Origin: Thermodesulfovibrio sp.
GTDB lineage: Bacteria > Nitrospirota > Thermodesulfovibrionia > Thermodesulfovibrionales > Thermodesulfovibrionaceae
Length of the DNA: 64,000 nt
NCBI GenBank assembly: GCA_025057595.1
Contig: JANXBK010000002.1
Span: 32,855-96,854, forward strand
Reading direction: 5' to 3'
Shown here: piece by piece, positions 1 through 1,186 of the stretch
Numbering within the stretch: position 1 is the first letter of the stretch
Layout: each line of letters begins with the position of its first letter
Notes under the pieces: model-generated
What the model was told of the DNA's origin: nothing
The model's database searches: none
Seen by the model: only the letters and a program-made list of their open reading frames with translations
Program-made: the position numbers and the translations under genes

Positions 1-1186
1 GTGGAAGCTCTACAGGATTTGCTTCATCGCAAAGTGTGTGTCCTGTTAAAGTGTCTTTTAATTTAACTGTAGCAACTATCTCACCTGCTACTGCTTTCTG
101 ACAAGGTATCTGTTGCTTACCTAAAATGTAGTAAATCTGACCTAATCTCTCCTTTGTTCCAGTATTAGCATTTAGAACAGTTGAGTCAGCCTTGAGTATA
201 CCTGAGAAAACCCTAATATAAGAGATCTTTCCTGCAAAAGGATCAATTATTGTTTTGAAAACATAAGCTGCTAAAGACTCATCAATTTTTGGCTTTTTTA
301 TTAGTTCTGAGCCATCCTTAGGATTAATTCCCTTTATCGGATAAATATTTGCTCTCTCAATCGGATTAGGTAGGCAAATAATAATACTGTCAAGTAGTGT
401 CTCTACACCCACTCCCAAAAGAGCTGAGCCTGCAAGAACAGGTATAAATCTACGAGCTAAAGATGCATCATGAAGTCCCCTTTTTAGTTCTTCCTCTGAA
501 AGTTCTCCACCTTCAAGATATTTTTCAAGAAGGCTATCATCAAGCTCAGCAATCTTTTCAACGAATTTTTTTCTGTACTCCTCTACCTTAGGCATAAGCT
601 CTGAGGGAATGGGAATCTCTTTCTGAGTTTTACCTTCCTGTACATATGCCTTGAAAGATATAAGATCTACAACTCCTTTGATTCCCGGACCTTCACCAAT
701 TGGTAAAGTAAGAGGAATCGCCTCTTGAGTGAAAACTTTCTCTATCTCTGCAACTGCTCTCTCAAAGGATGCATTTTCCTTGTCAAGTTTATTAACAAAT
801 ACAACTCTTGGGAGATCATATTCATCACAGTAATTCCATATTCTTTCAGTTTCAGCCTTAACTCCTGACAGAGCACTTACAATAACTACAGCTCCATCAA
901 CAACTCTTAATGCACCTCTTGTATCCTCAAGAAAATTAACAAAACCAGGCGTATCTATAATGTTTATTCTATGTTCTTTGTAATCACAAAAAACAACCTT
1001 TGAGCTAAGAGTCATGTTTCTCATCAGCTCCTCAGGCTCGTAGTCAATAACTTTACCTACAGTTTCACCAGTGGTGATTCTGTCAATTTGTCCTGTTTTA
1101 AAAAGTATCTGTTCTGCAAGTTTTGTATTTCCTGCACCTGCATGGGCTACAATTGCGATATTTCTAATTTTAGTAATATCTCTCAT
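1..1186 (-). CDS. Elongation factor G-like GTPase (EF-G paralogue), 3' end cut by window edge
   Basis: The first 395 codons of a translational GTPase are visible; the rest lies beyond base 1. G3 is DTPGF (residues 78-82) and G4 is NKLD (132-135), and domain II follows, as in EF-G. It differs from canonical EF-G at key places. The P-loop reads AHAGAGNTKLAE (14-25), with Asn20 in place of the Walker A lysine. Phe82 replaces the catalytic His of DTPGH. This resembles the EF-G2 or EF-G-like group rather than the main translocase. The ATG at 1186 is preceded by a strong AGGAGGAGG. It is the last visible gene of a long minus-strand run after purB and the methyltransferase fragment. Family is certain; its role and GTPase activity are not. 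Confidence 0.9.
   Translation of the reverse strand, partial: MRDITKIRNIAIVAHAGAGNTKLAEQILFKTGQIDRITTGETVGKVIDYEPEELMRNMTLSSKVVFCDYKEHRINIIDTPGFVNFLEDTRGALRVVDGAVVIVSALSGVKAETERIWNYCDEYDLPRVVFVNKLDKENASFERAVAEIEKVFTQEAIPLTLPIGEGPGIKGVVDLISFKAYVQEGKTQKEIPIPSELMPKVEEYRKKFVEKIAELDDSLLEKYLEGGELSEEELKRGLHDASLARRFIPVLAGSALLGVGVETLLDSIIICLPNPIERANIYPIKGINPKDGSELIKKPKIDESLAAYVFKTIIDPFAGKISYIRVFSGILKADSTVLNANTGTKERLGQIYYILGKQQIPCQKAVAGEIVATVKLKDTLTGHTLCDEANPVELP

Follow-up and report, generated by a model that had tools for sequence, protein, structure and literature searches.

Which steps of translocation require GTP hydrolysis by elongation factor G (EF-G) is still debated, according to the accessible text of PMC12775393, and an EF-G that is under selection without the P-loop lysine and the catalytic histidine, beside a normal EF-G, is a ready natural test. 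The locus described here raises the question of whether Thermodesulfovibrio holds such a protein and, if so, what it might do. It lies at the edge of a 64,000-nucleotide stretch of DNA from this genus, analysed as a whole (the window), where a minus-strand open reading frame truncated by the window edge encodes the first 395 codons of an EF-G paralogue, with an N-terminal start reading MRDITKIRNIAIVAHAGAGNTKLAEQ. In Pfam searches this piece matched the GTPase domain of the EF-Tu/EF-G type and domain II. The C-terminal part was matched in the same reading frame on contig C22, within which the window lies, and the two parts taken together scored 710.3 bits against the NF009381 profile.

A sequence-only reading of the window had placed a disabled Walker A motif at 1123-1147. 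Locating the codons on the minus strand showed these coordinates and the residues to be correct, including the asparagine at the position of the invariant lysine and the intact DTPG and NKLD motifs (Table 1). The same reading considered Lys22 to replace the usual threonine of the motif, which is right for the second Thr/Ser of GKT[TS], the position that we take Lys22 to occupy, and wrong for what is presumably the magnesium-binding threonine, since this corresponds to Thr21 and is kept.

Table 1. Features of the EF-G paralogue located in the window.
Feature	Coordinates	Strand	Basis or conservation
EF-G paralogue, G domain and domain II	2..1186	-	Open reading frame and Pfam; 3' part beyond the window
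P-loop (G1), A14-E25, AHAGAGNTKLAE	1112..1147	-	Same residues in 11/11 distinct genus orthologues
Asn20 codon AAT, at the Walker A lysine position	1127..1129	-	N in 11/11 distinct genus orthologues
Thr21 codon	1124..1126	-	Retained Thr, directly after the Walker lysine position
Lys22, at the second Ser/Thr of GKT[ST]	1121..1123	-	K in 11/11 distinct genus orthologues
G3 DTPGF, with Phe82 (941..943) at the canonical EF-G His	941..955	-	DTPGF in 11/11 orthologues
G4 NKLD, guanine recognition, intact	782..793	-	NKLD in 11/11 distinct genus orthologues
G5 GSA, intact	422..430	-	GSA in 11/11 distinct genus orthologues

Orthologues were present in 11 of the 16 Thermodesulfovibrio genomes sampled, the window's own included (a family-level search returned the same 16), and in 10 of the 11 genus genomes of at least 90% completeness; in the remaining one, G012, only canonical EF-G was detected and the paralogue was not found. 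Three genus pairs proved to be duplicates, and the 11 orthologues are distinct sequences. The other ten orthologues were 81-86% identical to the window piece, with the P-loop, RNMTL, DTPGF, NKLDK and GSA identical in all of them and Asn20, Lys22 and Phe82 always occurring together. The sequence-only reading had proposed examining the conservation of Asn20 and Phe82 in orthologues, with a GKT at this place pointing to a sequencing or assembly error. Both residues were found in every genus orthologue, each of which reads GNTK.

An assembly error or a decaying gene might be suspected in a host genome that is a 1.17 Mb bin, 72% complete and split into 72 contigs, but the same residues recur in 11 distinct genomes, four of which are assembled in one to three contigs. 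The suspicion is also countered by the rates of change. Across 36 pairs from the nine genomes that hold both genes, compared over reading frames of 698 codons without internal stops, the dN/dS of the paralogue was 0.034, as against 0.033 in canonical fusA (0.039 and 0.036, respectively, within the G domain, with borders set by eye), ratios that are rough because dS, at about 1.5, is near saturation and a few pairs gave no value. These values bear out the earlier remark that decay is not obvious. In the same nine genomes Asn20 was encoded by AAC (five) or AAT (four) and Lys22 by AAG (five) or AAA (four). Residues that stay fixed despite codon turnover and nearly saturated synonymous sites are maintained rather than drifting, and their identity in 11 of 11 orthologues at such divergence is more than chance or error would give. 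An artefact or pseudogene thus has a negligible probability, and both were ruled out for the genus on the strength of the shared residues and of purifying selection.

Canonical EF-G, with GKTTT and DTPGH, was recovered from 12 genus genomes, all 12 with the G3 histidine, and 20 of 20 canonical EF-G sequences from order relatives likewise carried GKT and DTPGH (22 genomes searched, two without a match at the threshold). Paralogue and canonical EF-G were seen together in nine of the 11 genomes, the exceptions being the assemblies of the window genome (G000) and of a 95% complete relative (G005), in which canonical EF-G was not found. In G000 an EF-Tu-like match (C66:5-238) sits at the end of a contig, which makes an assembly break near tuf a likelier reason than a true absence of EF-G. 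The order truB, purB, EF-G paralogue, argH was shared by the window contig and five genus genomes (L140-L144), interrupted in places by a small extra open reading frame, and argH also lies 3' of the paralogue in two order relatives (L138, L139), which identifies the gene as a positional orthologue. Between purB and the paralogue the window carries a minus-strand open reading frame of 219 amino acids (1205-1864) that overlaps the purB 3' end and matches part of an N6/N4 DNA methylase profile (positions 132-197 of 221); at this site a different 202-amino-acid frame is found in G002 (L140), and none of this size in L141-L144.

Relatives outside the genus were taken from the closer matches of a phylum search (295 genomes) and from a named-genome search (best 80 of 534 confirmed stretches), and comprised paralogues from Nitrospirota, deltaproteobacterial groups, Seleniivibrio, Mucispirillum, some Bacillota and other records. 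The Walker position could be scored in 208 of these sequences (168 and 40 in two rounds of scoring), L175 being excluded for want of its N-terminus; eleven non-genus pairs were duplicates, leaving 197 distinct sequences. Among the matches listed, the Walker lysine was kept in all 208. As orthologues outside the genus carry GKT, the substitution is a lineage-specific change and not an error, and within this set of matches an EF-G paralogue under active conservation has genuinely lost the lysine, with the loss fixed in, and specific to, the genus. At least one conserved EF-G can therefore do without a lysine that all 208 of the other matches listed retain. What had been observed from the sequence is thus confirmed and strengthened, and the interpretation then attached to it is partly supported.

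Phe82 had been read as part of the same disabling. The residue is there, as stated, but it belongs to an older, family-wide loss: the G3 histidine was absent from all 209 non-genus matches listed, in which the position was occupied by F (96), Y (73), D (24), S (9), A (4), L (2) or N (1). Phe82 is therefore not special to the genus protein, and this candidate feature was ruled out among the matches listed. Thermus EF-G-2 has a tyrosine here, and distant phylum members (L125-L133, L295-L297) have serine or alanine. In the phylogenetic tree the genus paralogues were monophyletic (support 1.0) and nested in lysine-bearing relatives. Most simply, the histidine would have been absent early across the paralogue family and the lysine lost later, once, on the genus stem.

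The neighbouring position 22 was Ser or Thr in 201 of the 208 non-genus matches listed and Lys in a single one, L111 of genome G127, which keeps its Walker lysine (GKTK). L111 also has DTPGL and an altered G4 (NMMD). Position 22 bears on a different account of the genus protein, in which Lys22 would reach the phosphates in place of Lys20 and the protein would still bind and hydrolyse GTP. In WNK kinases the catalytic lysine has moved, a case comparable in principle. The co-occurrence of Asn20 and Lys22 in all 11 distinct genus orthologues favours such a relocation, L111 with both lysines could represent a kind of intermediate, and every G motif is kept save for the family-wide histidine; that histidine is nonetheless missing here too, and in the tree L111 is not part of the clade sister to the genus, so that it shows Lys22 to be tolerated and nothing more. 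We consider a relocated lysine unlikely, though by some way the most serious of the competing explanations.

The P-loop is not the only part of the G domain that changed on the genus stem. In stem-length trees built from 28 genomes (nine from the genus and 19 from the order, G210 having been dropped), and with domain borders set by eye, the genus stem measured 0.504 substitutions per site in the paralogue G domain versus 0.100 in canonical EF-G, and 0.167 versus 0.113 in domains II-V, whereas G-domain divergence within the genus was about equal (0.129 in the paralogue and 0.146 in canonical EF-G). The burst was mostly confined to the G domain on the genus stem, where it reached five times the canonical value, and was followed by a freeze, a pattern expected of a nucleotide pocket remodelled for a new use. 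Eleven positions that are at least 90% conserved in near relatives were fixed differently in the genus, and seven of these fell in the G domain, which, with borders again set by eye, holds 90 of the 279 conserved columns; they include the Walker lysine, a lysine of switch I (K58N, numbered as in the full-length orthologue L007) and the residue before the G5 GSA.

So unusual a burst, together with the removal from the P-loop of its lysine contact to the beta- and gamma-phosphates, might also have yielded a nucleotide-free pseudoGTPase held in one locked conformation, which would act by occupying the ribosome or as a hibernation-like factor. Against this, a guanine-binding pocket appears to be under selection, since NKLD, DTPG, Thr21 and GSA are invariant in all 11 orthologues despite near-saturated synonymous sites. 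Nor is the G4 motif simply unchangeable, given that its lysine was lost in 29 of the 209 non-genus matches listed, in relatives that keep the P-loop lysine. We judge the pseudoGTPase quite improbable.

The rest of the protein retains the architecture of an elongation factor. L007 contains all five EF-G domains (GTP_EFTU, D2, EFG_III, EFG_IV and EFG_C; Pfam), and its alignment with the canonical EF-G of the same genome showed both domain IV loops, GGRGQYG and DGSYH, to be conserved. We take these loops to form the tip of domain IV, with a role in translocation. An AlphaFold2 model of the genus protein (L145; 39-sequence alignment) had a mean pLDDT of 89.9, with blocks over the P-loop and helix 1 above 90, and its best structural matches included ribosome-bound EF-G in the active state (7n2v; 1.7 Å over 685 residues, Z 56.5). 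The five-domain fold and the conserved domain IV loops suggest a protein built for work on the ribosome. The regulatory or ribosome-rescue role advanced in the sequence-only reading found no support; the conserved domain IV tip and the fold point to EF-G-like translocation or recycling.

L007 scored 939.6 bits against NF009381 (PRK12740.1-5, elongation factor G subfamily; cut-off 583) and 762.3 bits against TIGR00484 EF-G (cut-off 659.4). Two other families were tried and rejected, the Bacteroides EF-G2 family NF058620 (563.6 bits, below the cut-off of 1000) and the EF-G-like protein EF-G2 NF009377 (632.4 bits, below 890). The genus protein departs from the canonical EFG I pattern at two sites, with GNT in place of the P-loop GxxxxGK[TS] and DTPGF in place of DxPGH in 11 of 11 orthologues. 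EFG II proteins, as defined in the accessible text of PMC3150367, have a leucine at the last P-loop position (Leu25, 99%) and a GKT reported to be conserved; all 11 genus orthologues share this leucine (NTKL) and depart from the G1 GhxxxGKT and G2 xxxSx of that definition (GNT and RNMTL), while the non-genus relatives do carry its GKT. Like the genus protein, EFG II members such as Thermus EF-G-2 (1WDT) are second, five-domain EF-Gs beside the canonical one, with the same last P-loop leucine and conserved DxPG, NKxD and G5; compared by consensus, they differ in having GKT instead of GNT, Ser instead of Thr in G2, and Gly16 instead of Ala (PMC3150367). Thermus EF-G-2 binds and hydrolyses GTP (PMC3150367), and by analogy loss of the histidine alone need not stop hydrolysis. 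The accessible text of that study makes no mention of Thermodesulfovibrio or Nitrospira.

Among characterised factors, Bacteroides EF-G2 (fusA2; NF058620) resembles the genus protein in being a paralogue that coexists with canonical EF-G, and is a separate family, set apart here by profile score. Han et al. reportedly ascribed its GTPase loss, in 2023, to an EF-G2-specific 26-residue region and not to a P-loop lysine, unlike the genus change. Mycobacterium smegmatis EF-G2 (9k0z), presumably of the NF009377 type, differs from the genus protein, which fails that cut-off (632.4 versus 890 bits). Yeast Ski7 is more remote, being a eukaryotic EF1alpha-type factor that has a role in mRNA decay and is not known to carry EF-G domain IV. 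The nearest precedent in function is Bacteroides EF-G2, which is described as one that 'enables GTP-independent translation' (PMC10294740) and is strongly induced by carbon limitation (PMC6989115). M. smegmatis EF-G2, whose structure on the 70S ribosome has been solved to judge by the title of 9k0z, is reported to bind nucleotide and to be devoid of ribosome-dependent GTPase activity (PMC3150367). Ski7, a translational GTPase relative, shares with the genus protein a replaced G3 histidine, and hydrolysis by its C-terminal G domain is reported as not detectable (PMC4933942). An engineered lysine-to-asparagine change at the equivalent position is used to lock the Ras-like Rsr1 in its GDP form (PMC7554666). 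Our search of the open-access literature turned up no description of an EF-G that has lost this lysine. By the curated cut-offs the genus protein scores with NF009381 and not with NF058620 or NF009377, so that it is no member of the Bacteroides EF-G2 family, though it may work like that factor.

On this basis we propose, with confidence about evenly divided, a ribosome-acting EF-G variant that recognises guanine nucleotide without running a normal GTPase cycle, similar to Bacteroides EF-G2 and outside its family. This full-length five-domain paralogue, which Thermodesulfovibrio maintains alongside canonical EF-G, would bind the ribosomal factor site and move the tRNA-mRNA complex through domain IV, or help in ribosome recycling. 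Its nucleotide pocket would have been rebuilt, first by the family-wide loss of the catalytic histidine and then, on the genus stem, by the replacement of the Walker lysine by asparagine together with the new Lys22. With NKLD, DTPG, Thr21, the switch I threonine and GSA kept, guanine nucleotide is probably still recognised and bound; with the lysine and the histidine both lost, it would be held and hydrolysed abnormally, and presumably poorly, serving as a structural or sensing ligand instead of a fuel. Weak nucleotide binding or action without hydrolysis, as first suggested from the sequence, is in this respect plausible. That the substitution is kept as strictly as ordinary EF-G suggests a factor on the ribosome that has given up the normal way of burning GTP, perhaps a slow, low-cost elongation factor for energy-poor conditions. 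The gained Lys22 may compensate for the lost Lys20, however, and the presence of all the other G motifs is what a working GTPase would show as well.

A more specific version of the proposal is hydrolysis-free EF-G translocation that arose through loss of the Walker lysine, independently of Bacteroides EF-G2, and became fixed in the genus, whose members are anaerobic thermophiles, possibly with a relocated lysine that senses GTP, GDP or ppGpp. We put it forward tentatively, as somewhat more doubtful than the general proposal; if it is true, evolution would have arrived at a low-energy translation factor by a second route.

Two paralogue matches of the phylum search (G285:C199 and G139:C48) contained one internal TGA each, attributable to a frameshift, an error or decay. 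Loss of the G4 lysine (NELD, NEMD etc.) with the P-loop lysine kept was seen in the distant phylum members L125-L133 and L295-L297 and in L109, L114 and L116, and reads as a different route of G-domain change within the same family.
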